Shown piece by piece: positions 485-63,417 of a DNA stretch of 64,000 nucleotides (positions are counted from its first letter, which is position 1; each line of letters opens with the position of its first letter). The notes beneath the pieces are model-generated. The model did no database searches. It was given only the letters and a program-made list of their open reading frames with translations, and was not told where the DNA came from. Source of the stretch: Nereocystis luetkeana (Eukaryota; Sar; Phaeophyceae; Laminariales; Laminariaceae); NCBI GenBank assembly GCA_031213475.1, contig JARUPZ010000036.1, positions 1,550,001-1,614,000 on the forward strand. The letters are read 5' to 3'. The position numbers were made by a program, and so were the translations under genes.

Positions 485-2995
485 GTAGTGGCCGAGGTAG
501 ACCTTCCTCCCGTTCGACGATGTTGTTGGCGGAGGCGGCAGTGGCGGCTGCGACAGCACTAGCCCTTCCCAAGGTAGACATTGCACGCGCCGCTACTACT
601 GCCATGCTCTCCCTCCTTGGCGTTTCTACGGCTGGTAATATAGGCTGGCAGTGCTGTAGACGACGTGTTTGCTGTATTCTTGATCAATGTTAGAGTTACC
701 CGCCAGACAGCGGTGCGATGTAAAAGACGTTTCGCAGTTTCCCAGAGTATCCCAACGTGCATCCACCTTCAACGGCATATATATACCAGGTATAACCAAA
801 ACAAACTGCAGTGCTACATACAGCAAACACCGGATCAGTAAGCAAGGCACAGTACAGCTAATGCGTTTCCGTCCTGTCCAACAATCTCCTCGATGGTGCA
901 ATTTATTTGGTCATCGGCCTGGTTCGTCTCCTCTGACCTTTGAGTCACCCCACCGTAGGGGTTGCACTTTTTAGGCCAAAGGTTTCAGACCAGTTGGGTT
1001 CCTTAAGTGAGGAACTACGAGTTGGGATGAAATATTTCTCGTATATTCGCTTTAGGACTACTGTCGTAGCGCATACAAGTGCCGGTCGGGTGGCACGAAC
1101 GAATTTCTCCCAAGTAGTATGTCGGGTGAGAGATTGAGCTCCTAATGTGAGGGCCCCAGGAACTTCTGGTGCACCCCTACTTGTGGGATGGCTCCTTTCA
1201 ATACAGCCCAGCCCGCCTTTACGACTTATTTTTCATCATGCCAGCACAGGACTCGGAACATGTGCGCGTCCCTAAGTATTTCTGCTCCATCTCCCACTTT
1301 CTCCCTTCATTGTACCATTCCTCGCCTAGCTATACGTGTACCAGTCTGACGAAAAAAGAAGGGCCTCATTTAAATAACTTGGAAAAAATAGAGGAAATAC
1401 TTTGAATCAGAAGAGGTGAATTCAAAAGCCTCCAAGAAGAGCACCTACCTGCTCAAATTTGTTCTCAAGTTTCCTCTTTTTTCCCCAGTTTTTTATGTGT
1501 GTATACTCAGCACACCAATACTCGGAGACAATTTTTTGGTTTCCCTGGGTTAAGGAGCAAAGACAATATAATGGCAATCGGATATTTGTTGCCAGGCAGT
1601 TATTCAAATGGCTAGAATTGCCGAGAATGGCATCGATCGAAAAACAAAAATGGTCTGTACGAGCTCTCTCTGTAAATCGCCCCAAACTTCCTTACTGACT
1701 GGGAAAATTGAGCGAAAAGCAGATACTGTAGGCGGGGCGTGGTAACGAAGCATCCTCGGGTCAGCCAATAGTTATTTTACGCCTGTGGTCTCTCTGTATG
1801 GTGATACGCATATTAACGATTTTTAGGTGTACGATGGCCAGTACCCCATGATCTTATTTCACAAAGGGCCTGAGATTTTGTTTTTCGAAAGGCCGGTATA
1901 TTTTTGGTGAGACTGGTATGTGCTTCGTCCTGCTGTGAGCGCGAGGTCCCGCCACCTGCCCAATTTCTCCCTTTTACTTTTTCCGAGCAATCGCGTCGAG
2001 TGCATGCGATTCCCACCCCATCAATAGTGACTTCGGAGCGATGGTTGGTACGCTGCCTCATTCTTTGCCTCCCACGACTTCTCTCAACTATTGTAGGCAC
2101 GATGAGCTACTCGCATACATATCTGGTAGTCAGCAATGCCCCCTCGCCTTCATTGTGTGCGTTCACTATTAATATTATTAATAGCGTGAATGTGCGTTCT
2201 CGTAGATTCTCTACCCTATTAGAATACTGTATGTTGTGCACCCTCACAGATCCTCACGCTCATCGCCTCCAGCCCACCCTATGCCCCTAGGTGTCTCGTG
2301 CTGTTCACATCGTGGAGAATCATCTTCGCGCGCAACCGTACCGGCCTCGGTGTTTTGGCGATCTTGATAAAAACTCATACCTACTACAGCAGTAGTAGTG
2401 ACTGGTAGCAAATTAATCACAGTTAGTTAGGTGTAGCACAGTCCTTTGGCACACGTTGCTATTAATAGTACGTACAACAACATGATAGAGTGTGGCACAT
2501 AACCAAGTGTACGGAACAGCAGTTTGTGCTGTATACTTTTCAGCCTCCGCTGACCCAACGCCAGTGGGGCATGTGTTACGCACAACACACGCATAGTAAA
2601 CCCACAGGATACCAATAATATACTCTGAAAAATGTGTCGTACAGCCGTCCAACTTGAACTCGCGCTTGACACTCCGTGATCTTCACGGGCGGTTTCTCTC
2701 AGGCAACTCCGCCTCTACGCCTGCCTTACGTTCTTTGAAAAAAAATCGAGTCCTCAGCCCATGCTTATTAATTAGCCGATGGGCGTTGGTATCCGTAAGT
2801 ATTGTTTTTGATTTGCAGTCACCACGACAGCTGATTGGCTGCATTAGTACTGTCTTCCTTTCAGGTGCACCAGGACCGATCAAAACGCTTGCTTCGCTCA
2901 GTGGCTCGCCGCCTCGCCCCGCCTAAAAGCAACCATACGAAATAAGCAAATCACTCGACATCACTCGTGCTCATCGACTCGGTCAATTGGTGCAG
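485..2995. other. No supported gene
   Basis: Apart from the 953-1183 MITE relative and one TACCAGGTA at 784-792, I see only short unsupported frames, AT-rich stretches and no recognisable domain. Confidence 0.5.
953..1183. mobile_element. MITE family 2 relative
   Basis: The left end CCGTAGGGGTTGCAC is inverted at the right end as GGTGCACCCCTAC. Internal stem sequences (GGTTCC-TTAAG-TGAGGAAC, GAGCTCCTAATGTGAGG) are those of the family 2 copies at 23188, 34164 and 49435. Non-coding. Confidence 0.55.
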
Positions 2996-5096: not shown

Positions 5097-5259
5097 CCGT
5101 GATGGATGGTAGGGTCTTGTCATCCCCTCCTCTTCTTTCACCCACTACTCCTGTCTGCGACACTCGCGTTAGCTGCTGTTCCCCTGAGAAAATTGCCTGC
5201 GGACGTAGCCTCGGTTTTCGCTCATGAATGCAAGTAAATAAATGGCTTCTTCTCCGTGG

Positions 5260-6085
5260 CAGTACCCTGGCGGTAGCAGTCCCATAGCAACTCCGTGAGT
5301 GTTCATGGGTAATCGTGGACGCTCATATGCATAGCATTATTGCCACGGAACTGCCATGGGAGTATCAACTACCACGTCAGTGCCTTGAATTATCATGAAT
5401 TTTGCCACGACACCGCCATGGCAGTGCCATACTGCTGTAAGACTGAAACACGGGAATGCCACCGAGCTACCACCGGACTGCCATGATCCATTCTGTGCGG
5501 CTATCATCAAACTGCCAAGATACCTGATGGGATTTCGCGGTATTTTCTATACTGCGCTTGCATGACGTCTCAGATCACCTTATGAGATGTCATGGAGCAG
5601 CATGGCACCTCATGGCCTTTTCGTATAGGGCATCATGATCTTCACTGAAGTGCCATGACAGGGTGCCATACACGGCAGTCCAATGACAATGCCGTATATA
5701 TAGTTAACTGTAGTGTAATGGCAGTTTCATGGCAATCCCATTGCCGTCCCCATGACAGCTTTCATGAAAAAGCTCGTGAAGGTGCGTGAAAGCTCATGAG
5801 GTGCCGTGCTGGGGTGACATCACAGGGGCCACGAGGGAGCATGGAGGAAGTGCCATACTCGTAGAATACTATTACGGGGGGCCATAGTTAACAGGACCAA
5901 ATATTGTTTGTAAAAATGGTTAAACATATAGGTTTTTATGTATACCATGGGCCCTGTTAACTATGCCCCCCCGTAATAGAGCCTTCCTTTGTGAAGTCCC
6001 GTGAAAATCCATGAAAGTGAAAAAGCAGCCCCATGGAACTGCCAGAAAAAACCCATGAAGGAGTTGCCATGACGGGCCATGACAT
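5260..6085. repeat. CCATGG island 1 (TGCCATGGCA type)
   Basis: Degenerate short repeats around TGCCATGGCA with flanks such as AGTGCCATG and TCATGG. Interrupted by MITE copy 1 (5872-5976), so the island predates that insertion. Confidence 0.7.
5872..5976 (+). mobile_element. MITE family 1, copy 1 (TA duplication)
   Basis: Terminal inverted repeats begin TTACGGGGGGCCATAGTTAA and are flanked by TA on both sides (5870-5871, 5977-5978). The 105-bp non-coding body contains AAATATTGTTTGTAAAAATG. A TA duplication suggests Tc1/mariner mobilisation. It lies inside CCATGG island 1. Confidence 0.85.
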
Positions 6086-7251
6086 GCCAAGAAATATTTC
6101 CATTGATTGGCGTCCATCAACAAGTGAACAATGTACGGCATCCGCCATTTTACTACTACTGTACGTGCTGTACTGCTGCCGGCACTAATGTACAGTGCAT
6201 ACAGTATTATATATACCTATTACTACCACAACCATGTCGACCGCGAAGCGACTGCGAACAATATTTACCAGGAACCAGGGTATGTATGTGTTTTGTGTTT
6301 ATTTTGGTTTTTGCGTCAATATCGTAGCACTAACTGCTTGCTGTACATCGTGGCATTTCTTGTCTCCTTCACACATGGAACCTCTTTCTTTCGTATAACA
6401 ATAACTATTTCTCGTGTTGAGCCGCAGTGTTCTTATTCTTACAATTCCTTTCGGCGAGCATTTCCACGAAAATGCACATGGACTTCCCGAAATAGCATGG
6501 GTGGGAAAAGGGGATACGCTGCCCCCATCACCCCCCTGCATGCGCCTCTCTTGTACCTAAAGTCATACCTGGTAGTGCACAGGCACAGGGGGGGGGGGGG
6601 GGGGGGGCTATGATGCCCCCTTTCCCCGCGTGGATATGCCGCCCTTAGCACATGCAACAAAAAAACGAGGCAAGCTTGATTATCGTTCGCACTACGCGAG
6701 TGGCGAGCCTCCATCTATCTCCCGTGTTCGCGGGCGGTTCAATGAACCCGTCCATAGCCGGTGCCCCATCTATATTACAAAAATCAGAGTTTGATAATCA
6801 ATGGTTCCGTTCTTAACGGTCCGCCCACATGAAAAAACGGGTTATTGCCAAAAAAATCAGGTATATATACCGTGTCAATTTTGTGCCAAAACCAGTTACA
6901 CTCCAAAAACAAGTACAAATCACACGCGAGGAGCTCCGCCATTGGCCGGCCTCACATCGTACTTATTTGTGGCTTGAAACTGGCCAAATGCACCCATCTC
7001 GATTTGTTTACTTCGTCTAGATTTCAACTGGTTTGCCTGATTTTCATCCAACCGGTGAGGCCATAAGTACACTGTTTTTTCTCGGCGTACGTATGTATGC
7101 GGTTTCCGGTCCCTCGGTTGCAAGTCTGATGTCTAACCTCTGTACGTGTGTAACTATACACATACGTACGTACGCTGATTTCACTTCTTCTTGTTTGGGT
7201 TTTGGTACGATGTGCTTCATCAATTTTCTTATGTGTACTCTGTTTTTGTAG
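6086..7251. other. No gene seen
   Basis: Holds a run of 18 or more G near 6590 and a TACCTGGTA at 6566-6574. The open frames are unsupported. Confidence 0.5.
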
Positions 7252-7456: not shown

Positions 7457-10234
7457 CTAAGCGGAGCCCGTGGTACCTATATCCTGTAGAAAACACAGCA
7501 ATTCAGATTTTAGAGGCCCCCCGCTCAATGATCAGGCGTATTAATATATACCTGGTATATATTATATATATATATATACATATTTCATGGCCAGAAACAC
7601 CACTCGTGGCGTGTGCGCTCTTTACTTCAGGTTTCGGTATTTAACTGTTTTTGGCTCAAATGAAACAGGTGTACCTGGTTTTGGCAAACACCTCAACAAA
7701 AAAAGCTTGGCCGACCTCATCGCACGATCTCGGGAAGCTTGCAGTATATAACGGCCCGCCCATGTTGGGGTATACCATCACTAACCAACCCCTGCTACAC
7801 TTGCACGTGTTTTTGAGTGGGTTTGCGTCTCCAACGTCCTGCTCTGTAACGTGGATTCCGACCGTGTTTGGTTCCAGTTAACAGACGATTGTGATGGTTC
7901 CGTCGCCAACTCCCCGCCCATACCAAATTACATCACATACCGTACTCGACCGCTACGTGCGCGTAACTTCCGAGGGGGGGTTGCGCCTGCAATGGCACCG
8001 CAAGTGTTGAGAACCCACCACCACCACGGATGTTCGTCAATATTTTAGGATTGCAGTCCCGTTTTGAAATTCGGAGAAGTTTGTTCCCAAAACGGGACCT
8101 AGGGTTAAGCGTGCTCGTTCCGCCTCTAACATCCCTTCAATATCGGGATACACTGCCACTGCTTCTGTAGTTCATCAGAACAGTATGCACCTTGTAGTTT
8201 CGTTGTTTCGGGGGATTGCCCTCTCTAACGACCCGCTCGTACCGGGTACCTACCACGATGGCCAAACGACTACTATGAGTAGTAAGGAGTTCCGCTCATC
8301 ATGTATGTGGGAAGCACCATAGAATCGAGCTCATACATGTAATAATATCATGTGTCATTTAGGGATGGAGTACCGGACGAATCGATTCAAGTCTCTCCCT
8401 CCGTTTTCTGACCCATCCGTCATGTGAATGTATACGAGTGGGTGTGTACCAAACAGACCATGGCTCGCGATCCTTCTATTCTAAATGCCTCAATGATTCT
8501 CCACGGCAGCTATCTAGCCCTCTCTGCTCTCACGGTTCACTTCGAAGACGCTAAAGAAAGGATGATTTCGGTCGCTTGTCTTTACACGCTTCAGAATCTG
8601 GTGTGCGTATTCTGATATATTTGTTTACATCATCAGGTAACTAGTCTGGTGTTTATACCAGTACTGCATTATTAGCTTGTTGCGCCGTGAATTAGGCATC
8701 TCTTTCTTCGAACTGTTCCACTTTTTCTGCAGTTAACAGCATTATTATACCATATATATATAGCGTTTTAGGCATATATATATATATTCCTGCTGTTTCC
8801 CTCCAACCACGCGGTTGGTTCTTCTACATACTGGTACATATATGTGTTCGTGTTCTCTCTCCACTATCTCCGCTATCTCCCCTTCTTCCGCTCTGCGTCC
8901 TTCTGCTTCTGTTTATTTTGGTTTTGTCCCGATACCGCCTTCTTCGTTTTGGCTTCTTGTTCGTGCCTTTCCTTCATTTGCTTTTTGTTGTATGTTCTTC
9001 CTGTCGATGTCTCAATGAATAGTACGCCTGACACAGAGTAATTCATTCGTTTTGGCTCCAAAAAAACATCCCAGGTACAGTACATACCAAACCATCATGT
9101 GAAAGCCGGAAACTCGCTCAAAGCAACATACAGTAAGTTGGGTATAGAGCAGAAGACACGGGTTTCGGGTTGCACTCTATTAGACTATTTGTTCCTCGCC
9201 ATTTCGACCAGTAAACTATCTACCAGCAAGAAAGGTTTTTGGGCTCGCACAATGGTTTCGTTTCGTCTCGAAAAATGGCGGGACAGCACTTGACTTACTA
9301 GTGAAAAAATCGGCGGGAAAAGAAGACGCGTGTATTTGATGTTTGGTGATGTGAGCTCTTCTCCCGGTGTAAATAAACTAGACATCAAGAGCTACCAGGT
9401 ACTAATGTACGTGCACTTTGACGCACGGAACGCCATTATTTTCAGTAGTTAGTTGTGTGACCAAGTACGTACGTTATTTGTACTTGCTTCGAGTCTGTTC
9501 TATAATGATTTCCCTAGCAGATTGGTGTTAGTCTTGCATGATCTAGCATTATTTCATGATAATCGGAGCAGTTACAGTAAAGTAGTAGATAGTCACTATC
9601 TATCCTCGCGCAGTGAGTGTATACGCTTCCTATCAGCGTATAGGTGTGTGCTCTGCCGATCGGTACCTTCATGCCTTGCTCCTAAAGAGTACTGTACTGT
9701 CAAATTGCTACTGCTTCTACTACGTTACTGGTACTACAGCTACTACTTGTGTTGCACACTGACACCCTGATTCAATGCATTTGCTCCTACTTTACACCCT
9801 GGTATAAGTTTCAGCTTGTTCTTCCAGGGCACACACGGATATGACCAGCCTCTCTAGCCCATGAACAAAGCACACCGAAGCTTGCCGATTCATTCAAGCC
9901 CCGCCATCTTACATGCGCGATACTGGTAAGCTTGTGGCGCCGTATTGATTTCGCCCAACGACATTCGGAGCATTGTACGGAGGAGATGCGGCCGTAGTTC
10001 GGCGACCGCATGGTTCGCTGACTGACTGCTATGATGGCAGAGAGGGACTCGACTTTGCTCCGCACGGAAGGCTCCAAATCTCGAGTATTTCCTTCTCAAA
10101 TAACCTCTTAGACCTTTACTTGTACCGCCATACCAGAAGATACGCCTTGAGCTTTTCACCTCCAATTTGAGGTTGTCTGGAGTCTACCACTTTTCTGAAG
10201 CGCCACCACGGGCACGAACAAACCCCAACGAAGC
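7457..10234. other. No supported gene
   Basis: AT microsatellites (7540-7580, 8750-8790), an inverted CCCGTTTTG / CAAAACGGG pair near 8057-8100, footprint motifs at 7549 and 9393, and weak frames on both strands at 8815-9085 and 9811-10165. Confidence 0.45.
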
Positions 10235-10453: not shown

Positions 10454-11481
10454 TGCCTCAACAACCAATAGTCGGAAGCAGACCCGGCGTTTTTGTCTTG
10501 TTAGAGGCAGACACCTCTTGTCGCCCGCTTCAACGAGACGGGCGCGTGGTGCACGCTCACTACAAGGGTGCGGAACCCCCACCTCTTTGGAGATTAAAAT
10601 AGGAGAGGGGCAAGAGGCGGCAGGCGCTCTAGATCATACTGTACCTGGTAATACACATCTTGTGAAACGCCGAAAACATCACGTCGAGTCCGCAAACCGT
10701 AGACCAATCCAAAAGTAAGACAGACCTCCTAAAAGCACCGTTTGAGACCGAAAGCAGGACGCAACTTCCACCCAACGTTAAACAAATTCCGGGTCTGACG
10801 TGATTGTGAAACTTTCCAGGAGGAGGTGTTCAAGTAGAAGATCTGTGTATTCTACTAGGAACTCGAAATCGGGGATCTAGTCTACCCGTGTACTTGCTTT
10901 GGGTGCCATCTATACGATCTACTGGTCGTGTTTGCCAAAGGGGCTACGTGTCCAGGTGCCAAGGTGGAAACGCATCCAACACTCTTGCCTCCGATAACCT
11001 AACCGGCGCCACTCCAGACGGTACTCGTATGAAATTTCTCTCTGGTAGACCTTGCCATCTCACTCCAGTCTAACAACTCTTGCGCCAGTCTGTATAGATG
11101 CAGCTATGGTCCAGAGCCCCGCCAAAGCTCCCACCTCATCCCCCCACGAGGCAGTTTCATAGTTCCCCCATCATTGCTGTCTCTGGAAGTGGTCACACCG
11201 GAAAATAATTAACTCAGCGACGCTGTCATCCGTATGCGAAAAAATCCGAATCAAAAGCGGTAATTAGTATTAATAGGATGCAGCGCACTCTGCATGTGGT
11301 CTATGACTAAAACCATGCATGGTATCGGAAGTACCCGTCTCTCACGCGAATGGTGCGATATTGCCCTCAAATAGGATTGTGTAGTTTCGGATGGATATCT
11401 TGCTTGGAATTTCTTGGGCGTTGATGTTAGCACCGTGCTCCGTTGCCTCGCGAGGTTTTTCCCTGTCGATGGAGGACCTAC
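10454..11481. other. No supported gene
   Basis: Open frames on both strands without splice support. One TACCTGGTA at 10642-10650. Confidence 0.45.
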
Positions 11482-15607: not shown

Positions 15608-15712
15608 TTACGGGGGACCATAGTTAATAGGACCTATGGTATTCATCAAAACCTATATATTTAACAATTTTTACTAACAATATTTGGTCCTATTAACTAT
15701 GGCCCCCCGTAA
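15608..15712 (-). mobile_element. MITE family 1, copy 2
   Basis: Same ends and body as copy 1, opposite orientation, flanked by TA (15606-15607, 15713-15714). 105 bp. Confidence 0.88.
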
Positions 15713-15729
15713 TACTGTGTCTCCGAAAT

Positions 15730-15811
15730 TGTTATACATATTATTTTGGGCTGGGTAATCGATCGAGATCTTTTACCCCTGTACCTGGTAGCTCAGTAGG
15801 TAACACCTTCA
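15730..15811 (+). mobile_element. TRIM/SINE-like repeat, copy A
   Basis: Begins TGTTATAC and contains GGGCTGGGTAATCGATCGA, TTTTACCCC and TAGCTCAGTAGG, matching copies B and C at 21213 and 21499. It carries a TACCTGGTA footprint at 15782-15790 that copy C lacks. Confidence 0.6.
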
Positions 15812-17381: not shown

Positions 17382-17486
17382 TTTTGGGGGATCATAGTTA
17401 ACAGGACCTATGGTACACATAAAAACCTGTATGCTAAACCATTTTTACTAACAATATTTGGTCCTGTTAACTATGGCCCCCCGTAA
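17382..17486 (-). mobile_element. MITE family 1, copy 3
   Basis: Reverse orientation, TA flanks (17380-17381, 17487-17488), same body; one end is diverged. 105 bp. Confidence 0.85.
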
Positions 17487-17807: not shown

Positions 17808-18020
<213 letters not shown>

Positions 18021-47900: not shown

Positions 47901-50085
47901 CCCCTGCCCCATGAAACCATCAACCAACAGATCGCTGGTTGAGGCCTCCCCCTCTACACGAGTTGAACGACCTCCTTCCGGAGGCGATGTTGAACAACGG
48001 GCTCAAGGAAAAGGGCGAGACCCACACGCCATCCCCGGCGCAATCGACAAACAAGACAGCTACGTCGACGCCGAATCAGAAACAACCGAAGCTGGTACGG
48101 GGTCTTGGTGGGGAAAACGCGTATATCGTGGTGGCGTGAGCGACAGCGAGGATGGTGGAGGGGCCGAGGGCATCACCCGGGGCGGTGGAGTCATCAGGAG
48201 CCAGGAGGTTCCAGAGGAGGTAGGCAATCGACCTCCCATACCGACAACGGTGACCCAGCTGCTGTAATGGTCGTATGCCCTCTTCCTTCCCCCCCCCCCC
48301 CCTGCGAAGGCATTCCTTTAGTTACCATCTACACGTTATTTATGTTTATTATCAGAGTGGTGAACTACAACAAAGCAAATAATGACGAAATCCCATTCGG
48401 TGGCAAAGCTTCGAGGTTTGTCGCGGTGTGCTGTGACCTGTTGCCGTCACCAGCGGAAGCCGTTTCTCCTGTCCAGATATGAAGTACCACCAGGAGTGCC
48501 ATGGAGGAACGGCGTTACATCTAGGCGGGGGTAAACATGTCACGGTTGGCCCCACCTTTAGACCTTCAGAATGCACGCTACGGTAGGGGTAGCACTTTTT
48601 TGCCCTCTAGGGGCAAACATTCTGACTGATGGGGTTCCTCGATTGAGGAATACAGCCAATGAGGCATGCCTTGTCGTTTGTTGTTTCACAACAGTAATCG
48701 CTATTGACCTGAGGCCATAGGTTTGTTTGTTTTACAACGCAAAATACGTACATTTTACTTTTAAGGCCACCATTGGGTAATATGGACCTCATTTTTAAAA
48801 AAGTGCACGCACCTCGCCATGCGATTTCATGGCACCATTATTTAGGGTAGCAGGGAGATTGATTAACAGCAGTGTACCAGTCGGTTTTCTCAGCGTTCGG
48901 TAAACTGGGGGGGCGTGATGTTTGCCATCCATCTCTGGGAGAAGCGCGTATCCACCGTGCTCTGTTCTGCAGAGGTGTTTGACGTACCAGGTAGCGTGGA
49001 GGGGTCGGGGTTGCCAAGAAAGGGGGCGTGTTCTTGCGTCTCGCTCGCCCCCGTATTTTCCGCTTTTATTTCCAGGCAATGGAATTTAGTGTGTTATACT
49101 ATTTCTCCTGTGTACGCGGTGTTCTACAGCACCCTTGACAAGTGTTTCCCCCTTTCCCCCCTCAACGTTTCGCACACCGTGTCCATCCATGAGTGGTGGG
49201 ATCGGGCTCGACCTAAATTGGTGTGTAGCCTCTGGTCGGTTGGACATCTGACATGTTTACAGTTCATGCTGCCGCCGCTACATGAAAGCGCACCCATATT
49301 CCTCCGTTCATCATTTTTTGCTTACAGTAGGTTGGCTCTTGAGACTATCGTGAAACGACAGGGGGCCGACCGAGCAAAGTCGCCGTCGTTTTTTTACTAG
49401 TTTCTCGTTTGCAAAAAAGGGAGTACAAGGGACGCGTTCTACGATAGAGGTAGCACGTTTCCGCTCCTCCGACACCTGAATGACGGGGTTCCCGAACCCA
49501 AAATCGTCGGAATGCCGATCTTGTTTCGAAAAATGACGTTTTTTGTGTACTTGGGCCGTGGGATTACTCGTCGGGACGCACTTTGATTTTTGCTGAAGTC
49601 AGTTTTCGGGTGAGGTATGGAGCTCCTCGAGTGGGGAGCCTCAGAAAAGTTAGGGTGAACCTCTATCGTAGAACGCCTCAAGGCCAGAGATGCAAACGCA
49701 TCCTCCGATTTTGTTTTCCGTCGTTTGTGCAACCAACTCAACGCGAGACATGGCAAACGAATTCTCCGTTTTTCGCTTGGTCGCTTATGCTCAACCAGCT
49801 CAAGGCTAGACATGCAAATACACCCTCCCATATTTATTTTTTTTGTCGTTTGACCCCACGAACACAAGGCGAGACGTGCGAATGCATCCTCGATACGAGG
49901 AAGTGCAGACGCTCCAACGGGAGAAGCAGCAGAAGCAGCAGAAGCAGCAGCAGGAGGAGGAGGAGGAGGAGGAGGAGGAGGAGGAGGCAGGAGGATCGTG
50001 CTCGGGGAGGCTGGTATCGGCGACTTCTGCGTTACAAGAAGCCTGGGCAAAGTTCCGCGCCCTGGTTCGAGCCGAGGGCATGGAG
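41714..50085 (+). CDS. Gene B1: six-exon low-complexity protein, function unknown
   Basis: Exons 41714-41994, 43730-44332, 44876-45000, 46025-46367, 47931-48219 and 49909-50085. The five junctions have matching phases (2/1, 2/1, 1/2, 2/1, 0/0) with consensus borders, giving 606 codons without a stop. The ATG at 41714 has an in-frame TAG four codons upstream, which supports it as the start. The protein is Ser/Pro/Ala/Arg-rich, with basic patches (PPRKRQQ, KKPRVPK) and acidic patches, and ends in a Gln/Glu coiled-coil run. I recognise no domain. The 3' end is unresolved: exon 6 may read to a stop at about 50152, splice onward, or join the following TPR gene. It is divergent to gene A, with the CCATGG array between them. 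Confidence 0.68.
42503..42525. repeat. Triple overlapping TACCTGGTA
   Basis: TACCTGG three times in tandem, closed by TA, as if the TA of one footprint had been hit again. A fourth copy lies at 42534-42542. Confidence 0.9.
42743..42856 (+). mobile_element. MITE family 1, copy 4, with internal footprint
   Basis: Same ends, TA flanks (42741-42742, 42857-42858). 114 bp rather than 105 because TA has become TACCAGGTA at 42800-42808, plus a 2-bp change. In intron 1 of gene B1. Confidence 0.9.
43730..44332 (+). CDS. Gene B1 exon 2
   Basis: 200 codons from ttcgaacag|A to CCCCTG|gtaggc. Ala/Ser/Pro-rich, containing SVKIDRSRAPPREPPRKRQQ and KQRFAVDPSLVAGKMEPAAA. An internal GCTG|gtaaga at about 44143 is a rival donor, but it would break the phase with the next exon. 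Confidence 0.65.
44876..45000 (+). CDS. Gene B1 exon 3
   Basis: Acceptor gtctcatcag|G and donor AGACGAG|gtgagg (consensus). It encodes QLSLDRFAFSDSSAVGTGLW and EEGETETADYPADFDKR. Confidence 0.7.
45181..45370. repeat. 95-bp tandem duplication
   Basis: Two nearly identical units starting TGTCCGAATTCAT at 45181 and 45276. Intron 3 of gene B1. Confidence 0.93.
46025..46367 (+). CDS. Gene B1 exon 4
   Basis: Runs from acgcaaccgcgcag|GA to CGAGTGAG|gtgaga, 113 codons. It was predicted from the phase-1/phase-2 gap between its neighbours and fills it exactly. It encodes PQEERLLHSSARRRGQQNQD and SAESLLVGDFGARGKTKEED. Confidence 0.65.
46395..46550 (+). repeat. G-run repeat, two tandem copies
   Basis: A poly-G tract followed by TACTCATTTGTTGTTTGCC...TTAGTCATTTGAC, then a second G-run with TACTCATCTGTCGCTTGCG. 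A third copy lies at 50108-50195. Confidence 0.65.
47520..47610. repeat. AGATC-rich microsatellite
   Basis: Repeated CAGATAGATCAG words. Similar GATCTAGAT words appear in the 214-bp duplication of gene A intron 1. Intron 4 of gene B1. Confidence 0.7.
47931..48219 (+). CDS. Gene B1 exon 5
   Basis: Acceptor caaccaacag|A and donor CCAGAGGAG|gtaggc. 96 codons, hydrophilic, with KQDSYVDAESETTEAGTGSW and a Gly-rich end. No known domain. Confidence 0.7.
49435..49675 (-). mobile_element. MITE family 2, copy 3
   Basis: 241 bp with CGTTCTACGATAGAGGT at both ends, inverted relative to copies 1 and 2, with subterminal GGAGCTCCTCGAGTGGGGAG. Intron 5 of gene B1. Confidence 0.9.
49679..49895. repeat. About 62-bp diverged tandem repeat
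   Basis: Three and a half units beginning CAAGGC(C/T)AGA(G/C)ATGCAAA, ending just before the acceptor of gene B1 exon 6. A good pyrimidine tract is absent here. Confidence 0.7.
49909..50085 (+). CDS. Gene B1 exon 6: Gln/Glu coiled-coil
   Basis: Runs from gaagtgcag|ACG to GGCATGGAG|gtgcag, 59 codons. It encodes TLQREKQQKQQKQQQ followed by eleven Glu and SALQEAWAKFRALVRAEGME, strongly helical. The (GAG)n and (CAG)n runs are length-variable by nature. If the donor is not used, the frame stops at about 50152 after a poly-G tract. Confidence 0.68.
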
Positions 50086-50400: not shown

Positions 50401-50867
50401 CGGGCTGCATAAAGGGTTGGCTACATCCTACCGAGAACCTCTTGTGACGCGGACTTTCTGGCATATGGATGGCATTGTCGAATGAAACGGCTGGTGGCCA
50501 CTCGGGAGCGATTGGCTTTCCTATCAATGTATATGAAGGCGATATTTTGTTGCGTCTGGTGTTGCGTCACGATGCAGTAGAGTTCACCAGTTTTTCGACG
50601 CCATGGTTGGGGCACACTGCCGCTGTGTACGAGACAAATGGCTGATTGGGTTCTGATTGGCTTAGGCTTACTTCTTGTAGTATCGTGCAAAGCCGAACTC
50701 TCAATGTCGAATATTTGGTGAACCTCCCACTCTCGCGATGCACCACCATCTATCGTATTGTTTGCTACGCACGGTGCGCCAAACAAACTTGACGTTCGTT
50801 TCTGAGTGAGGCACAGTGCCGCTATCTAATGCAAATACTGTACCTGGTAGTAAATAGTGGCCTACTA

Positions 50868-50975
50868 TTACGGGGGGGGGGCATAGTTAACAGGACCGAA
50901 TATTGTTAGTAAAAATTGTTAAACATATAGGTTTTTATGTTTACCGTAGGTCCTGTTAACTATGGCCCTCCGTAA
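50868..50975 (+). mobile_element. MITE family 1, copy 5
   Basis: Same ends with an expanded G-run, TA flanks (50866-50867, 50976-50977), body as copy 1. A TACCTGGTA lies 19 bp upstream. Confidence 0.87.
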
Positions 50976-51327
50976 TAATAGTGCGAGAGTGACCTGAAAG
51001 CGGTCGTGAAAGAAGGGGGTGAACACCCTTAGGGGTACGCGCTTGAGCATCTGACGTAAATGCATCGATGGATTCCTTGACTGGGTAGTTCGTGCAGCTT
51101 CCTAAAGTCACTAGCGTTGGCCTTGGACGAGCTGCAGGGCAACCCGTAATGTTGTTGGGATCGTTCGCCGATCCCCATATTTCACTTCGTGCAGCCTCCC
51201 AGAGACGCCATTTTTGCCGATCTGTGGAGCAAGCCCGCACGACGTTCGGATCGCTGCTCCATCTCCATGTACCTATCCGTGCGTATCCACACACAACATC
51301 GCTGTTGCACCTTCTTCGTGCGCATTG

Positions 51328-51674: not shown

Positions 51675-54600
51675 GTCAGCGAGCGAGCGAGCGAGCAAGC
51701 GTCGGATAGAAAAATGCAAGGGTGTATTCGGTATAGGGTACGCACCAAAGTAGACGGGGGGCATTTTCTCGGAAAATTCCCCACCGAAGTAGTCGGTAGA
51801 TTTCGGTAGGGATACTCCACCGACGTATTCGGTAAGATTCGGTGCCGCCTCAATATAATACGCTGCCGCGCACTCAGGTGAAGTTCCGATATCTGTACCC
51901 GACACTTCGGTAAGTACGGTACGCCCACGAAAAAGATCTCCCGTAGCTGTGTACCCTGCCGAACCCACCCTTCAAAAATCGGTTGTAGGTGAATCGACGA
52001 CATTGAGCTGGTGAAGAGGTGTCCTTAATTTTTCCCACGAGACAGAGTTGGATATTCTTGGTTGTGACTTCGGCTATGATGTTGAGCCGATCGAATGGGG
52101 GGGAGGGGGGGGGGGGGTCGTGTCATGCATGGCCGTGGTGGTATGACTATTAGAACCCTCGCATCCCGACACCGCCGAGACGGAGATTGTCGGATTTTTA
52201 CGGACCAGTCAGACATGGCTTGCACCGAGCGCGGAAGCGTGGGGGTCACCGATGTTTGCCCCACGAGACGAGGGGCGTTGTCATATGCATTTTATTGCCT
52301 GGTTGCTGAGAAGGGTGGTGGTGCCATGGCTTCGAACGGACTACGTTAGCGAAAAAGGTCGTGTATAGACCGCCACTATTGACTACCAGGTACGTTGTTT
52401 CGCGGGGGAAAGCGTCGTGCTCTGCCCAGGATCGGCTCTCGGAGCTTTGACTTTGGCTCCATGGTTGAATACGCTCGTGTTCCGACCAATCGTCGCACAA
52501 TACGTCTCCTGTCCCCTCGGTGCACACCGATTTCTGTACCGATGGTTTCTGTCGTGCCTTGGGTTCTGCATCACCAGCGCTCGTCCACTCTCTCAAGTCG
52601 CACACTTGTACACTGTGCTTGGTAGGGGTAATAGAATCACCACTGCACTACGCAGGGCGTTTCCTTTGGCAATAGAACCACCAAAACGTACTCCTCGTTG
52701 TGTTTGCATCCCGCACAACTATTCCTGTATACGTTAGCCGTGCGGCGCTCTCTAACCCATGTAACTACTCTGTGGCGCTCGTCCTTCGCGGAGCGCGGGG
52801 CTCAGGTAGATACTTGCGTCGGTCGGCGTGGCGAATGGCGCTGGAGCTGATCGCTATACCCAAGAACCCCCCCCCCCCTCCCCTCGGCCCCCCTTCCCCC
52901 CCCTCTTCTGCTCATTCCCCTAGGGCGCACGCGATTATATCTCGGGCTATTGCATTGACTGGACAACCCTACATGTGTGTCGTGTTGCGGGAGCTGCGGG
53001 CGCGTATGCGGTGCACATTGGGGAGATGGGTAGACGCAACCGAGGATGTGCGTGCAGCACTGCGAGCGCTGGAGAGGGGGGGTGGAGACGCCCGCGACGT
53101 GCGCGCCTCGAAGGGAACTCCGACGAAGTTGAGTGCACGATTTAATGTGGCTTATCGAGGAAAGAAACGAGTTGATGCTCATATAAGGTGAGGTGATTGG
53201 ACATACTGAAAAAATATATGCAGGGAAGGTAGGAGGTGGGTGCTCATGGGGTTGGAATGACTGAGTGCTCACGAAGGTGGCAAACGTATTAAGTTTTTTT
53301 TTAGAAAGGGCAATGTTATCGAACAAAGAACGGAGTTGAGTGCTCATAGAACGCGGCGTGATTGGGGAAAAACTAAATAATGCAATCGACGAAAGAGCGA
53401 AATTGAGTGCTTACAATAGTGGCGCGACTGGGGAAAACAATTGAAGTTTATGTGACATACAAGGCGCAAAGCTCCCGGTATCTTCAGTAGACCTTGCCAT
53501 GCTTTGCGTGGCCCCTTTATATTGCACGTGCAACAAACAAAACAAAGGCCCACCTTCAACTCAACGCTAGCTCGCGTCCCGCCCTTGCGCCCCGAAAAAA
53601 AAACGATAACAGGACGAGGCGGCTGCACTCGGAGCGAATAGGCGCTGGCGAGAAATTGCATGTGGCTTAGTCACGCGTCATCGTAAGCGTAGCATCCCGG
53701 GAAACTTTGGCGCAATCGTTTCCGCGGTTCTTATGGGATGGAGGGGCCTCAGGTGCGCGGCGTGGATTGCTTGAGAGGTACACCCTGCTGCTGTGGCATG
53801 CAGCTCTATGGCACCCTGCTGTACATGTTGACGCTGCTCTCCAATGGGTCCATCGTTCAGCGTGCGGCGGATGCCGGCCGAAACGTACTCCTGTTGAATT
53901 TAACACACACCGACGTGTGTTTCGGTACCATCGTAATCAGGACCGATCATACACGCAAAAAATCATCTACTACATTTTTCTTATGAAGCGGATTTTGTGC
54001 GGATTACTACTTTATATTCCCTCGTAACACCAGTAGTTTTTGTGAGGCTCCTCACTTGAATACAGTATAGAAGTTATACCTTATCTCGCCCGAAAACGTT
54101 TTTTTGTTTTTCAAAACAAACTAGACGGCCTATCGTAGGTGCTGTTCGGATTATTGGGTCCTGAAACAAGATGTTGTCAACGATAAAAGGGTCGGGTGAA
54201 GTAGTTTCTTAGTCGAGGAATCCCCGTCAGTCCCAGTGGCGATTTACCCTAAAAAGGTACAGCAGCACCCCTATACCCCTATCGTAGCATGCGTCCACCG
54301 TACCTTTTGCTGTGTGAAGAGTGTTCGAGCGAGGAGGGCTAACGAATGACTCCGTTTCGCCCCAGGGTGAGGTGGCCCAGTGTACCCTGCAGAGCTGATG
54401 TCGTGTTAAGCTATAACTCCCAGAGAACTACAGAGAAAAGGACAGCAACAAAAAAAAACGCACCGCTGTTTGTCCACAACATTGTTTCTTCGAGGGGTCG
54501 AAGTAGATGCAGTCGAACGCCCCTTTTCTACCCGGTATGAGACTCCCTCTGGAGAGCAGCACGCCGGACAAGCACTGACCTCGGAGACCTGTTAAGGATC

Positions 54601-57600: not shown

Positions 57601-60600
57601 GTTGTCGAAGGGGGTGCGCCGGTCCCGGTGCTCAACCATAGTCGACGTGCCTCGAGAGGCCAAGAGGAAGGCGTGGAAGAAGGCGAGAACGATCACGTGC
57701 GAGAGGACGACACAGAGACCAACGATTACAAGAAGGAGGAGGAGAAAGCGGAGGAAGACCAGGGCGACAACGAGGACAAGCGAGGCAAGGACGGCGATGA
57801 AGAGGACAAGAAAGAAATGGAGGAGTACAAGGAGTACCGGGAAGACGAGGAAGACAGGGAGGGCGAAAAGGACGGGGAAGACACGCAGGAGGAGGAGCAG
57901 GCCCAAACGGAGGAAGAACAGCGCGCTAGTCTCGAGACGTCCGTGAGGTTGCTTCGCTTGGTGCTGGCAAGTATTGTTCGGTCGTTCCGTTATTTTTTGC
58001 TGTTGTCGACACCTGAAGAAAGCGTCCAGAAAATCAGATGCTACCGTGGCGACTATCGTGGCGAACGTGAAGAGGCCTAGGAGGAGTTTGACAACGGGAT
58101 CATCTCGAGATTTTCTACTGAGTCCAGTCCTGGTGGAATGGACGTTATTTAGCAAGCTATTCCCGCACAATCGCAGCATTGCACATACCACTCACACGTT
58201 GTCCGCACGATATCTGTGTATCCCCAACGTTTGCGAAGCCCTCCCGACACTCATGACCTTCGGAGGTGAACAACTATTGCGGTTGCCATCACAATTTCAC
58301 TCGCACGCCGCAAACGCGTTTCATGCGTTACGTTAAATCATCGCCTGCTCCTACACCTGAATGACCACTGCACCCTCTTCCTCTTGACTCTGGCCCGAAA
58401 ATTTCGTTGTTCAACGTATGGTGCCGCGTTTTCCCCTCTCCAGGAAGATGGTCAGATGGCTTGGAGGGCCGACGTCCGTGCTCCTTGCATCCTGTCCGCT
58501 GCCTTCGTGAAACTCGCGGACCTGGCCAAGAACAGACGAGTCGAGCCAGCTGCTTTGGGTGCGACGGACACTCCTGGAGTGGGCGACGACCAAAGACGAG
58601 GCAGTCCTCTCCTCGGAAAGGTAAATTAACCCGCCCGTTTTTGAGGGGGGGGGGGGGGGGAGTAAAAAGGTACCTGGTAGTACATAGCTGTCGTGCGATA
58701 AATGGGAACTCGCGCATCAGGAAGTTAGCAACAGTTGTCAACTTGTGTGCGCTGGTGGTGTATAAGTATGTGGGTACGTAACTATTTCTACTTGACGACT
58801 ACACCACCAGCAGTAGTGTGCAGTATACACCCATGAGCATACCCGTCTCGGTCGGGTAAAACGTTAACGAGCCATCTCAGCTGCTCTCGTTTGGTTGCTT
58901 CGGTGTTGCTGTATATTCTGCTCGGTCTGATCTCCCTGCCACGGTGGCGTGTTCCCCCTGCTGGACGGATTCGATTTTACTATCGGGGGTTGTTGGTGTA
59001 AAAGACAGGCCTCTAAGCTCCTTCTGGGACGTAAAAACTCCCACACAAAAAAGCGCACAGAACGTGTAGTAGACACACCCAAGAGACAGGCGGCCTAAGA
59101 CGCGTGCATCGGTTGGGGGTCACAAAGATACTTCTGACTAAACTGGTTTCTCAACCCAACATCGCAGGAGTGCCTTTGCGATAATTGTTTTACGATATTT
59201 TTCGAGTGATATACCTACGGTAGGTTCATCGGACGCACTTTTGAGTCCTCTCACCACCAAGTTTCGGGCGTTGTTAAGAGCTCCTCACGCTTTGAGCCTC
59301 AGGAAAATACACGTGCACACCTCTACTGTTGTAACACGCATCCTAAGACCTTTTGGGGACGCAATAACACACACACAAAATCTGCACGGAACGTATTCCG
59401 CACGCCCGATAAAGTGGGGGTCTACGCGAGCCCATTTTGGGACGTCAGAGTCAAATAAAAACATAAAGAGGGTAGGCAAATCCGCACGTCATGCGCGATT
59501 TTGGACACCCCAAAAAAGCGCTCAGAAAGTATGTATAACGCCCACCTTCCACCAGGAACTCCTAATGGGGGTTCCCGTCCACCCAAGGGTGCGCGTGAAA
59601 TCGAATCCGACACCCCACTATCTTCTTCGAGGCCGTATACTATTAATAATACCATGCAAAACCAAAAATTTGAAAAAAAAACGTGTTTTGGTAAGTTCGT
59701 CCAGAAACCATTGTGACCTTTTTCGGGTGTGTCGTGTCGTTTCTTATGGCCTGTTCAGGAGTGTGGTGTCGTGCATTTTGACCTTTTTAGTAGTGTGATG
59801 TCGTTCATTTTGACCTTTTAGAAGTGTGATGCCGTTCATTTTGGCACTTCTAGGAGCGTAGGATCGTTCATTTTTTACCTTTCTAGGAGTGTGGTGTCAC
59901 GTATACATTTTTATATATGGTGCGCCCCTAATCCTCCCGTGGCCCGTGAAGTCAGTATTTTCGGGGACCAGCTGATATGACAAAAAAATGAGAAACGCGG
60001 TCTCATCAACGGTCTTCTCGTTGAGCTGTCTGAGTACTACGATTGTGATGTGAGCGTGCTGTTGTACAACCAAACTCCTTGCAGTGCAGTTCCAGTACGA
60101 AGTGTATCTATCATTCCCTGGATACGGCAGCAGCGTCGGGTTGCTTCGCGTGCTTGAGTTGCGTCATTTTTCCGTCCCTTGACGTCTCTACGCTATAATC
60201 AAGTTAATCGAGACTCCAAAGGGATAAAAATTGTCATCTTCTTGTTTTCCTTACATTCTATTTATTTTTTTCCCATAAAGTCAATGGTGGAACCTGTCGA
60301 TGGAGAGGAACGGCGAGCGGAAAATGGCCGCGGTGCTGCGGGAGAAGAAAAGCAAGTCGTGGTGGGCAGCAGCAACCTCAGTGAACACGCGGGCGCTGGA
60401 ACGACATCTGATGGAGCCAGCGGCGTTCTTGCGGTGGAGATGCCGGCCACAAGGCAGGAGATATTAAACACCGGCGAAGAGGTGTGGATTCGACATAACC
60501 TATTGTATACTCGTAGCCCAACGGAAAATACACAACCTACCGATAAAAACAGAACCCTTTGGACGCAAATATAAGAACTGGTTGGTCTCCATATGAGTGC

Positions 60601-63417
60601 CTAAACGATCCTCATACTTCTGCCCTGGTGGGACTCACTTTGTGGGGGGCGCTAAAACAAAAGGGATTAAGAAATCGTGCCCAGCGGCGAGCGTTACAGT
60701 AAACCCGTACGTATATATTAGCTTGCGCCCGAGGCTGCTCGAGGATGGTGTCACCATAACGATCGAAGGGTTTGCTCAGATGAAGCGGGGTTTTTTTTTG
60801 CGGGACTATACTGAAATTAAGTTATATGCGCTTGACCGAGACACTTTTGTGAGACAGGGCATGTATTATTCTCGCCTGGGACTCGCGCTGCTGGTGGGTA
60901 TTTGTCGGAATAAGGCGTGCCTTACTCTCGCTAGGAACTCCCGCTGGTGGGTATTTGTGAGAATAGCGCGTCCCTGGCCCTCGCTACGACCTCACCAAAC
61001 GCATGCCATAACGTGCATGTCTTGCCTGCCGTATCCAGTTCGATGGCATGGCATGGCATTGCCTACTCTGCTTACTGAAAAAACAATGTGATACCAGGTA
61101 TCTCTGTGTCGCGGTGTTTGTGATCGCAGGTCTTGTATCTCTCTACAGTAAGATTAAAGAATCGTCGCGGACACTGGTTGTGCTGGATGTCGACGAGTAG
61201 AAAGAACGGTTCAATGTGAAGAACATGTACACTGGTGGATATTTGTCGATACTACGGCATGCCTTACTCTCGCTAGGAGCTCGCACCAGTAAATATTTTG
61301 TGACTGTCGGCAAAACGGTGTGCGATGGCGGTGGAAGGTGTAGAAAAACAAAAAACAAATTCGGAGATTTCCGGTTCAGACACGGCGGATCTCTGACTTC
61401 GTCCATTTCATAAGGTGAGGTAAGGCATGCCCTGTGCTCTAGGGGTGCATGTATAACAAGCAAATTCCCAGCTAAAAAGTAAGACATGCCCTATATCTCA
61501 GGTGGCCGTGAATCGACAATTCCTAGTGATCTGCTGCGATACGAAGGGCGATTTAAACCGTACTGCTGTTGCTGCTGCTGTTGCTGTTGCGTTTTCAATT
61601 TGCAACAAGCTATACTGCTCGAACCACACACCGCCCTGGGTATAATGGCCACTCCCCCGATGCTTCCAATATGTTTCCCCCCCCCCCCTATCTCCCTCCC
61701 CCCATCCTTCCCTCCCTCTCAGAGCCTCGAGACTATATTCGAGATATTGGAGAAAAAAGTCTCTCTCCTGCTGTCGGCGTGGAAACCCCTATGGAGAGCC
61801 CACTGTAACGCCAAGGGTCTGCGCGCTAGACTAGCCGGCGGGGGAATGGGTTCGCGCTTGGCTACTAAGCGGAGGCGGGCAGGTGGTGGCCGCGGTGGCG
61901 GGACGTCAAGCTTAGGAGATATGGTGCTCGAGATGATGCGCTCGGTGGCAGGCGCCGGCGTCGATATTGAGGTACTTATAACGCAGCTGAGTACGTACTT
62001 ATATCCAGCACATAATTTCGTTCCCGGGCAACTCTGGGTGGTATGTTTCCGGGTACAGTATTGCGTACGTCCTCAGGGATATTGTCCGGCATATAGATGT
62101 ATGGGTAGGCATTCGTGGTGGCAAAATACAAAGGGAATGTCATATATATTTCTCTGCTGCTGCTGCTGCTGAGGTTTCGGGTACGGGAATGGCATCCCCC
62201 TATTGATTGCGTCGCCCCCCTTATCAGGCCTGCTTGCTGCGGACTGCGAGCGTTTAGGTGGACTACAATAGTACGCGCTGTATACACGTACCATGGGTAC
62301 AATTCAGACAAATCCTTCGATTCGATTCGGGCTCATTCTTGTGTCCCTTCGAGGAGGCATCTTGTACTGAATACATGGGGCCTTATCGTGTAGACACGGA
62401 GTGATGGAAAAATAACCTCCCGAGCATAATGCATATGCGCCAGGGGAGGAACATGTCTGCTATCTCTACGTATCCCTCCCCAACCTTTCCTTAAACATGT
62501 GGAACGTATCGAGTACAAGAGCACAATACCTACACCCAACGGGCACCACCTTCAAGTTGGCCCCCGGCCTGCCGTGGGAAAAAAGGGTCTTCCTTCTCAA
62601 CGACTGCCCGTTCTCTTTGTTTCTGCACAACGTTTCCTGGGAACGCCAGAAAAGCGGCTGCGCTTTGAGCCAGTCATGCTCGTAGGGTGTCTCGTTGCCC
62701 GTTCTGGGGCGCGTGGGATTCGTTGCGTTGCGCGCAGGAGGCCGATAGCGGCCGCCCATTACCCACCAGAGCGGGGGAATGGAAGCAGGTAATGTATGAG
62801 CTCGCCATAGCTGAACAACCCTGCTGCGGCCTTTTGCTCTCTGGGCCTCTCTACGTCCAATAGCCCTTGAAAACCGGGCTCAATACTCCATCTCCAGCGA
62901 TAGCCGATCGGGGGAGGCGGGGGAAGAAGTAGGGGTCACCGTTGACCGAGGAGTGGCCTCTCTGCGCGTTGCGTTAGCTTCCGACTACGGAGTGTGCTTA
63001 CAAGCTATCCTTTCAAGATCCCACGTTTATCGACCATTGGCTACACGTGGCCATTCTCTCGGCCCAAGTTTTAGACCCCCGCCGTTCAAGCTTCACAGCG
63101 TACCTTCCACCTTATGTTTCGCCTTCCCCCTTTTTTACCAATCGTGTCTATAAATCGTATAGTGCCGTCGTGCTTGGCGTACATCCCCTTCAGCGTGCAA
63201 CTCCTCACCGCTCCGAATTCCACGAACGTCGCACGGGTTTCCCCGACAGGCACATGCCAGTCTCAGCGGATCCCCGAAAGTTGGAAGCGGGGGGGGCAGG
63301 GGTGGTGGCAGCGTGGAAGGGGCGGGGCGAGCGAACAGTGCAGATGGCACTCGAATCGAAAAAAAGGCGGGAAAGCTTCCGAAGGAGCTAAAAACCCAGC
63401 TCTCTCAGCTGCTCAAG
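51328..63417 (+). CDS. Gene B2: nine-exon TPR protein with long acidic region (3' end beyond or unresolved)
   Basis: Exons 51328-51674, 52924-53187, 54811-54979, 55816-56229, 56824-57942, 58444-58620, 60281-60481, 61723-61971 and 63250-63417. All junction phases agree (2/1, 2/1, then 0/0), giving 1036 codons. Seen: a Ser/Asp/Glu tract and KLRKKRKGKS (possible NLS) near residues 35-80. TPR-like helical hairpins follow at about 100-166 (LLKKGRRFLRAGRIK...AIISRAIALTG, then LRELRARMRCTLGRW), 205-235 and 252-285. A Lys/Glu/Asp-rich region lies at about 650-765, and short helical exons follow. TPRs are protein-interaction scaffolds; partner and pathway are unknown. It may be the continuation of B1 through the acceptor gatggcag at 51334. 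Confidence 0.7.
52098..52262 (+). repeat. G-tract-linked dispersed repeat, copy 2
   Basis: See copy 1 at 50238. Intron 1 of gene B2. Confidence 0.65.
52924..53187 (+). CDS. Gene B2 exon 2: TPR
   Basis: Acceptor tctgctcattcccctag|G and donor ATATAAG|gtgagg (consensus). It encodes AHAIISRAIALTGQPYMCVV and LRALERGG, completing TPR1 and giving TPR2. Its 3' third shares sequence with the intronic minisatellite that follows, so the exon may end earlier; the phase supports 53187. Confidence 0.7.
53110..53460. repeat. Minisatellite overlapping gene B2 exon 2 and intron 2
   Basis: Diverged units with GAGTTGAGTGCTCATA...GGTG(A/G)NGTGATTGG at about 53125, 53170, 53235, 53333 and 53402. The exon's own 3' end and donor are one unit. 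Confidence 0.65.
54037..54293. mobile_element. Possible MITE family 2 relative
   Basis: GTGAGGCTCCTCACTTGAA and CTCGCCCGAAAACG at the left, CCCC(T)ATCGTAG at the right, as in family 2, but the ends are not well paired. Confidence 0.35.
54811..54979 (+). CDS. Gene B2 exon 3: TPR
   Basis: Acceptor cttgcgaag|G and donor AAGCACGAG|gtgata. It encodes ARVMLVAAKVLAQQQKFEAA and VLNEAFKHE. The helix pattern fits a TPR. Confidence 0.68.
55816..56229 (+). CDS. Gene B2 exon 4: TPR
   Basis: Acceptor gccgctgcag|ATT and donor CTCGCAAG|gtgggc, phase 0-0, 138 codons. It encodes IQCLREMGDVRAALQTAQDM and AAAGLEKAYEAAVWAK. An earlier donor GCTAAG|gtaacg at 56061 is also in phase and could give a shorter isoform. 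Confidence 0.72.
56824..57942 (+). CDS. Gene B2 exon 5: large disordered acidic exon
   Basis: 373 codons from accgacag|ACA, after a C-rich tract, to GAGACGTCC|gtgagg. The first half is Ala/Gly/Arg/Ser-rich. The last third is a Lys/Glu/Asp run with EEDKKEMEEYKEYREDEE, a likely single alpha-helix or disordered region. It is the longest open frame in the window. Two later in-phase donors (CTTG|gtgctg, GGCAA|gtattg) are possible. Confidence 0.75.
58444..58620 (+). CDS. Gene B2 exon 6
   Basis: Acceptor cccctctccag|GAA and donor GGAAAG|gtaaat, 59 codons, phase 0-0. It encodes EDGQMAWRADVRAPCILSAA and FVKLADLAKNRRVEPAALGA. No domain recognised. Confidence 0.75.
59757..59905. repeat. About 36-bp tandem repeat, four to five units
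   Basis: AGTGTG(G/A)TGTCGTTCATTTT followed by GACCTTTT(T)AG, diverged. Intron 6 of gene B2. Confidence 0.8.
60281..60481 (+). CDS. Gene B2 exon 7
   Basis: Acceptor after a T-rich tract (ttcccataaag|TCA) and donor GGCGAAGAG|gtgtgg, 67 codons, phase 0-0. Hydrophilic: MVEPVDGEERRAENGRGAAG and EMPATRQEILNTGEE. Confidence 0.7.
60850..61300. repeat. 53-bp repeat cluster and dispersed repeat copy 2
   Basis: GGTGGGTATTTGTCGGAAT...CCTTACTCTCGCTAGGAACTC at 60893 and 60946, with another unit at about 61228. The 61131-61226 segment is copy 2 of the repeat at 13660. Intron 7 of gene B2. Confidence 0.7.
61723..61971 (+). CDS. Gene B2 exon 8
   Basis: Excellent pyrimidine tract and acceptor (ccctccctctcag|AGC), donor GATATTGAG|gtactt, 83 codons, phase 0-0. 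It encodes SLETIFEILEKKVSLLLSAW and GDMVLEMMRSVAGAGVDIE, amphipathic helices with an Arg/Gly linker. Confidence 0.78.
63250..63417 (+). CDS. Gene B2 exon 9 (last seen)
   Basis: Acceptor tttccccgacag|GCA, frame open through KKAGKLPKELKTQLSQLLK to CTCAAG|gtgctg, 56 codons. An alternative donor GAGCAAAG|gtgaaa lies about 40 bp later. Gly/Ser-rich, then helical. A second frame here (GAKNPALSAAQGAGDD) is also open, so the end of the gene is unsure. Confidence 0.55.

Follow-up and report, generated by a model that had tools for sequence, protein, structure and literature searches.

Transposons of the Sleeping Beauty type leave overhangs that anneal to each other with a single central A/T mismatch, and Passer takes TA as its target. 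According to the excerpts of the literature on which we draw, Tc1/mariner excision footprints span 2–4 bp (PMC7913693), the overhangs are 2 or 3 bp long and the Sleeping Beauty footprint reads C(A/T)GTA (PMC3878927), and Passer, a pogo-type element, leaves footprints of 0–4 bp (PMC9976928). Stowaway MITEs and plant mariner elements are described, again in excerpt, as leaving the TSD together with a short piece of the element end, after a staggered cut inside the TIR (PMC4561436). For brown algae, the excerpted Ectocarpus survey gives 17 Mariner-Tc1 families with 11,912 copies, most of them non-autonomous, and in that excerpt names no CCWGG ends for these families; the terms "footprint" and "excision" are absent from its main text (PMC12477816).

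The word TACCWGGTA in the genome of Nereocystis luetkeana works like the excision scar of a TA element. It resembles the C(A/T)G footprint of Sleeping Beauty and Frog Prince, as excerpted, in its TA target, its duplicated TA and its palindromic scar (PMC3878927, PMC7913693). It is unlike them in that 5 nt (CCWGG) rather than 3 are left, in that about 182,000 scars are present in one genome, and in that neither the source element nor its transposase was found in the searches made. Passer shares the TA target, and DDE_1 genes of its class are present in this genome (28 matches). The scar differs from that of Passer, for which the excerpt gives 0–4 bp (PMC9976928), in measuring 5 bp, and 0 of the 10 DDE_1 loci examined in this genome lie between matching CCWGG ends. 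Stowaway and plant mariner scars are, in the excerpted text, small indels without a fixed form (PMC4561436), whereas the length here is nearly uniform. The Mariner-Tc1 elements of the excerpted Ectocarpus survey are likewise brown-algal DNA transposons (PMC12477816).

With regard to class, plain TA becomes TA-CCWGG-TA in repeats, which is the insertion at TA with TA duplication that marks Tc1/mariner elements. The 5 bp between the two TAs exceed the 2–4 bp footprint of that superfamily, though offset annealing of 4-nt overhangs could yield 5. PIF/Harbinger elements have a 3-bp TSD and generally precise excision, and piggyBac elements target TTAA and excise without a scar; here TA is the target and is duplicated, and a scar is left. 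Because a source element with matching ends and a transposase was not found, we do not file the word under Tc1/mariner. The open-licence literature, in the part that our survey covered, reports no such genome-wide scar, none of these words and no uniform 5-nt footprint.

Abundance and uniformity of TACCWGGTA

TACCWGGTA stands for TACCAGGTA and TACCTGGTA together, and the window is the full 64,000-nt stretch analysed here, a part of contig 36. A script search of the window returned 27 exact copies, 9 of TACCAGGTA and 18 of TACCTGGTA, and matches all 27 coordinates given by the first-pass annotation; its chance expectation of about 0.5 is also borne out, as a first-order Markov model gives 0.46 for both words jointly. 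The copies occupy 25 separate places, those starting at 42503, 42510 and 42517 overlapping in one array of three. The sites are as follows, none with a strand assigned and each located by the script search unless another basis is named.

784..792, TACCAGGTA site
6566..6574, TACCTGGTA site
7549..7557, TACCTGGTA site
9393..9401, TACCAGGTA site
10642..10650, TACCTGGTA site
14715..14723, TACCTGGTA site
14955..14963, TACCTGGTA site
15270..15278, TACCAGGTA site
15782..15790, TACCTGGTA site; 7 bases absent from a similar stretch, window 21515–21572 (83% over 60)
16596..16604, TACCTGGTA site
17226..17234, TACCTGGTA site
17315..17323, TACCAGGTA site
18248..18256, TACCTGGTA site
21597..21605, TACCTGGTA site
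23092..23100, TACCAGGTA site
29095..29103, TACCTGGTA site
42503..42525, three TACCTGGTA in tandem with TA in common
42534..42542, TACCTGGTA site
42800..42808, TACCAGGTA site within the minus-strand MITE copy at 42741–42858 (aligned MITE copies)
46569..46577, TACCTGGTA site
48985..48993, TACCAGGTA site
50841..50849, TACCTGGTA site
52384..52392, TACCAGGTA site
58671..58679, TACCTGGTA site
61092..61100, TACCAGGTA site

The word is genome-wide, as had been proposed. Across 465,085,209 bases in 1,987 contigs we found 182,395 copies, against 1,744 of the reversed pattern that served as control, an excess of about 100-fold and a density of about one copy per 2.5 kb. A 144-kb sample, made up of the window and L009–L016 and selected independently of the motif, contains 62 copies where a second-order Markov model expects 1.43, and every one of eight 10-kb samples contains the word, with 1 to 9 copies each.

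Among words of the form TA-N5-TA, TACCWGGTA occurs 69 times in 162 kb and the runners-up 16, 13 and 11 times; one of these, TAGTTAATA, stands 26-fold above expectation but belongs to the inverted repeat of the MITE described below. When the same letters are spaced differently, the excess in the 144 kb is weak at best: TACCWGTA occurs 17 times with 11.5 expected, TACCGGTA 5 times (2.4), TACCWTA 45 times (34.8), TACCGTA 31 times (20.6) and TACCWGGGTA twice (0.8). The length of TACCWGGTA is therefore nearly uniform, which supports the footprint proposed in the first-pass annotation. Copies with C or G at the centre in place of W number 7 against 1.29 expected in the same 144 kb, as decay of the centre would produce.

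A decay series is also seen genome-wide. One-mismatch copies number 184,988 (367,383 minus 182,395), whereas the control word has 64,511 of them (66,255 minus 1,744). With either the control word or a Markov estimate (33.6 in 162 kb, scaled to the genome) as background, the one-mismatch excess amounts to about 0.49–0.66 of the perfect copies. This corresponds to roughly 5–7% substitutions per position if all sites are of the same age and stem from one burst; the ages look to be mixed, with an average that is not very recent. To leave this many scars, a small number of active copies would probably suffice, given a long period of activity.

The window holds several other repeats. A perfect GTA microsatellite of 70 units lies at 17810–18020, an array of about 95 copies of the 5-base unit GGTTC at 27389–27868, and two adjacent low-identity arrays, CCATGG-rich, of period 11 and in opposite orientation, at 38732–40369. 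An imperfect palindrome of 424 bases (77%) spans 12374–12797, and part of it recurs in L015. The words TACTGCTGTA/TACAGCAGTA occur 15 times in 162 kb with 0.44 expected, partly inside a local repeat (window 2385, 5430 and 43534; L015 8457–8679; L016 2902). With regard to exons, a kinase search gave coordinates for 139 matches.

Plain-TA counterparts in repeats

In a systematic test over 193 kb, we looked for repeats elsewhere in the sample that match the flanks of a site without gaps, with or without the insert. Six of the 76 TACCWGGTA sites have an empty match, in which the word is replaced by a plain TA; the gain is exactly 7 bases, or 14 where the word is double. These sites are window 15782, window 42800, L003:1501, L015:3237, L015:3281 and L019:2269. 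The comparable sites are thus few: four lie in one MITE family and two, L003:1501 and window 15782, elsewhere, and L019:2269 is the only one that also has an occupied match, in L015. The proposal that the word arises by insertion at TA, with a gain of 5 nt and a second TA, is thus supported by repeat copies that read plain TA against TA-CCWGG-TA. L010:642 was set aside as an empty-site case: both similar stretches read TG, not TA, and the site failed the systematic test.

The same test was applied to other words. The 754 TA-N5-TA words gave 11 empty and 73 occupied matches, and 9 of the 11 empty ones are the same six TACCWGGTA sites or shifted overlaps of them. The control word TACGATA gave 0 empty and 7 occupied matches (n=46), TACWGTA 0 and 2 (n=104), and TATTAATA 2 and 2 (n=41).

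Two of these words are also frequent. TACWGTA, the known 3-nt Tc1/mariner footprint, occurs 85 times in 144 kb with 23 expected (window examples at 1724, 6157, 14134 and 36644), and none of its 104 sites had an empty counterpart among the repeats of the sample. TATTAATA occurs 35 times in 144 kb with 1.05 expected, about 33-fold, often as C-TATTAATA-G (window 2167, 2460, 11268, 18216, 37203 and others; L016:5669). One unit of a ~273-bp satellite in L016 carries TATTAATA, and units 98–99% identical to it have plain TA.

The MITE family that holds four of the six sites is about 110 bp long, with ends TTACGGGGG...CCCCCGTAA (TTAC...GTAA), TA flanks, long inverted repeats and many copies. TATTAATA could be the scar of this TTAC...GTAA MITE, with TTA overhangs annealing at TA by an offset logic. 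MITE copies in the window are listed below.

5870..5978, minus strand, empty MITE copy with plain TA
15603..15714, plus strand, empty MITE copy with plain TA
17386..17488, plus strand, empty MITE copy with TG where TA is expected
42741..42858, minus strand, MITE copy occupied by the scar, a before-and-after substrate
50875..50977, minus strand, empty MITE copy with plain TA

At the position of the scar at window 42800, ten of 13 other aligned MITE rows have plain TA and three a one-base variant. Genome-wide, 6,953 places match one inner MITE stretch, occupied or empty: 676 show the occupied sequence WAAAAACC-TACCWGGTA-TATRTTTAAC and 6,277 its empty counterpart with plain TA, the reversed controls giving 0. 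Occupancy at this MITE TA is 9.7%, against 0.68% for the average TA, or about 14 times as high. The empty alleles that the first-pass annotation called for are accordingly present in paralogous repeats, both at the six sampled sites and in the 6,277 empty copies of this one TA.

In L015, a MITE copy has the scar twice in tandem at the TA that is occupied at window 42800, and once more at a second TA. Two copies, in L015 and L019, have a scar at one and the same TA and with an identical centre. Of 100 listed among the 676 occupied copies, read in fixed orientation, 66 have A and 34 have T at the centre; in these 100, the excess of A is confined to one MITE subtype (53 to 21), and the other subtype has 13 to 13. 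Some of the 676 occupied copies may have inherited their scar.

Proposed excision mechanism, searches for the source element, and alternatives

We interpret TACCWGGTA as the excision footprint of a TA-inserting cut-and-paste DNA element, and give this reading a probability of about 0.78. It is the best explanation of the data and is now backed by the before-and-after pairs; from it we infer a long element, the length of the overhang and the repair of a mismatch. A DNA element with CCWGG or CCWG ends would insert at TA and duplicate it. On excision, a staggered cut would leave either flank with 5 (or 4) bases of the element, the overhangs would anneal to each other with one central mismatch, and joining and fill-in would produce TA-CCWGG-TA, one scar per excision. 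The scar, having two TAs, would match the preferred target, and a further hit would give rise to 7-bp tandem arrays.

Two overhang lengths would serve. In a 5-nt model, 5'-CCAGG overhangs on both sides would pair at 4 of 5 positions around an A-A mismatch. In a 4-nt model, CCAG overhangs would pair at their last three bases (C-G, A-A, G-C), followed by a one-base fill on each side. The first-pass annotation had proposed a 5-nt stagger; since a CCWG overhang annealed at CWG and then filled yields the same product, such a stagger is not required. The 4-nt model would keep the cut within the published 2–4 bp range, and it would allow element ends of CCWG followed by any base, so that ends should be sought without insisting on CCWGG.

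The first-pass annotation had put the mixture of A and T centres down to mismatch repair. By itself the mixture is no evidence of such repair: apart from its central base the word is a palindrome, TACCAGGTA being the reverse complement of TACCTGGTA, and the mixture on one strand follows from orientation alone. More telling are the rarity of C or G at the centre and the occurrence of both A and T at the same TA in the MITE, where orientation is fixed. The footprint interpretation is thus supported in its insertion at TA, its genome-wide reach, its empty copies and its near-uniform length, but not in the A/T argument or in any need for a 5-nt stagger, and no full element was found in the searches described below. 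NHEJ usually leaves scars of more varied form, which counts against a footprint of uniform form, as does a 5-nt scar that is longer than the published 2–4 bp (Tc1/mariner) and 0–4 (Passer).

Searches for the source element took several forms. In 193 kb, we found no TA-flanked inverted repeat starting with CC and bearing CCWG ends that had convincing inner similarity, bar one that failed genome-wide. Candidates of the form TA-CCWGG...CCWGG-TA with 26–56 bases number 361 genome-wide against 415 for the control, showing no excess. Profile searches returned 0 matches for DDE_3 (PF13358), 0 for Transposase_1 (PF01359), a weak result as its control was silent, and 28 for DDE_1 (PF03184). In the 10 of 28 DDE_1 loci examined, with about 1.5 kb on each side, no matching CCWGG ends surround the DDE_1 gene, and these ten loci contain single half-sites. 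The full element with CCWGG ends and a linked DDE transposase, which had been anticipated, was found neither in the 193 kb nor among the 26–56-base candidates genome-wide nor at the 10 DDE_1 loci.

The DDE_1 matches in L018–L027 are pogo-type, several of them with open frames over 300 codons. A transposase-like frame in L019 has 82 relatives, the best at 94% identity; all seven named relatives with E < 1e-30 come from Ectocarpus sp. CCAP 1310/34, six at 48–62% and one at 34% identity. As far as one gene family can show, this points to a brown-algal host other than that Ectocarpus.

Several candidates for element ends were rejected. TACCWGG half-sites that lack the following TA, such as the TIR-like TACCWGGCAC, are probably scars that have decayed, a T-to-C change in TACCWGGTAC, rather than element ends. 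A TIR-like pair at 50841/52392 (TACCTGGTAGTMAATAGTGG, 1,552 bases apart) has 6 genome matches, two of which are this pair; the TACCTGGTAGTMAATAGTGG loci share at most about 20–26 bases around the site, except for a 37-base stretch at 86% (L030/L031), and we reject the pair as a coincidence helped by the target preference. TACCWGGAACTWWTTT is in excess, matching the genome 16 times where the control matches once; the three of its 16 loci examined show no element, two of them belonging to a single repeat and having an identical inner piece nearby, and we do not regard it as a TIR. L007 contains an insert of 25 bases ending in CCTGG...CCAGG; this and similar short inserts show no genome-wide excess over the control.

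Alternatively, the 7-bp unit CCWGGTA might be put directly into TA, with no long element involved, by some enzyme such as a domesticated transposase or an activity of DNA repair. The 182,395 units and the absence of any element with such ends from the searches made would fit this proposal, as would the near-uniform length; the TA duplication, the symmetric target preference and the self-complementary insert are, however, predictions of transposon excision, and a second TA-flanked excess word, TATTAATA, can plausibly be derived from the ends of a resident MITE. We know of no enzyme that inserts such a fixed 7-bp unit, and consider direct insertion unlikely.

It is quite improbable that most copies go back to the amplification of repeats containing the word instead of to numerous independent insertions. 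Amplification would account for the excess of A centres in one MITE subtype (53 to 21 of the listed copies) and for the scar that L015 and L019 have in common at one TA, and some inheritance is likely. Against it, only 6 of 76 sites have an ungapped repeat copy and all 6 have a wordless one, a weak test that covers 193 kb of 465 Mb, and what the sites have in common is a flank preference, not flank identity. A functional DNA motif, protein-binding or chromatin-organising, that selection has retained or that has spread because of what it does, would suit a palindromic, very abundant word found in all eight 10-kb samples. It is scarcely credible, however, given that the word appears as a gain of 7 bases at different TAs in repeats of which other copies are without it, that decayed copies are numerous (184,988 one-mismatch copies, the control having 64,511) and that tandem arrays occur.

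Target preference and a possible record of jumps

The excision reading extends to the target. Flanks of single sites (130 half-flanks, both directions) have T at 0.51 and A at 0.35 in position −7, A at 0.51 in position −6 and T at 0.05 in position −1, a preference that is absent at 208 TACWGTA half-sites and at 21,064 TA half-sites. TA occupies −7/−6 in 38 of 124 half-flanks, or 0.31 against a background of 0.058, a five-fold preference. The empty target is a symmetric, TA-centred stretch of 16 bases in which a further TA is favoured seven bases to either side.

Each TA of a scar has a TA neighbour seven bases away on one side, so scars should be hit again. Tandem pairs that share a TA number 15,917 genome-wide, against 2 for the control and about 2,467 expected if TAs were hit at random; this 6.5-fold excess is close to what the five-fold preference would produce. 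In the first 59 forward pairs listed, counted by hand, the centres were AA 23, TT 17, AT 14 and TA 5. Pairs with mixed centres need two events or two resolutions, and the excess of equal centres means that some arrays may have grown by duplication.

The observation in the first-pass annotation is right, and stronger than was claimed there. A wider proposal goes beyond the footprint itself and is one that we advance tentatively, as possible but rather doubtful. A TA-targeting transposase, perhaps now single-copy or domesticated, may have shaped a brown-algal lineage by cutting 5 nt inside its ends, outside the published 2–4; self-complementary ends would force a uniform scar, and more than 200,000 jumps, perfect and decayed scars taken together, would be recorded as 7-bp marks, each of which creates the target anew. 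The element itself would be nearly or wholly gone. If this is true, the scars are countable and datable 7-bp marks of jumps.

Excision scars are normally studied singly. Here there is about one per 2.5 kb, each apparently the product of one jump and each testable against empty copies. If the footprint reading is true, the lifetime transposition count, the target preference and the repair outcome of a DNA transposon would be measurable from one assembly, and the genome would offer many candidates for frame-shifting 7-bp polymorphisms.
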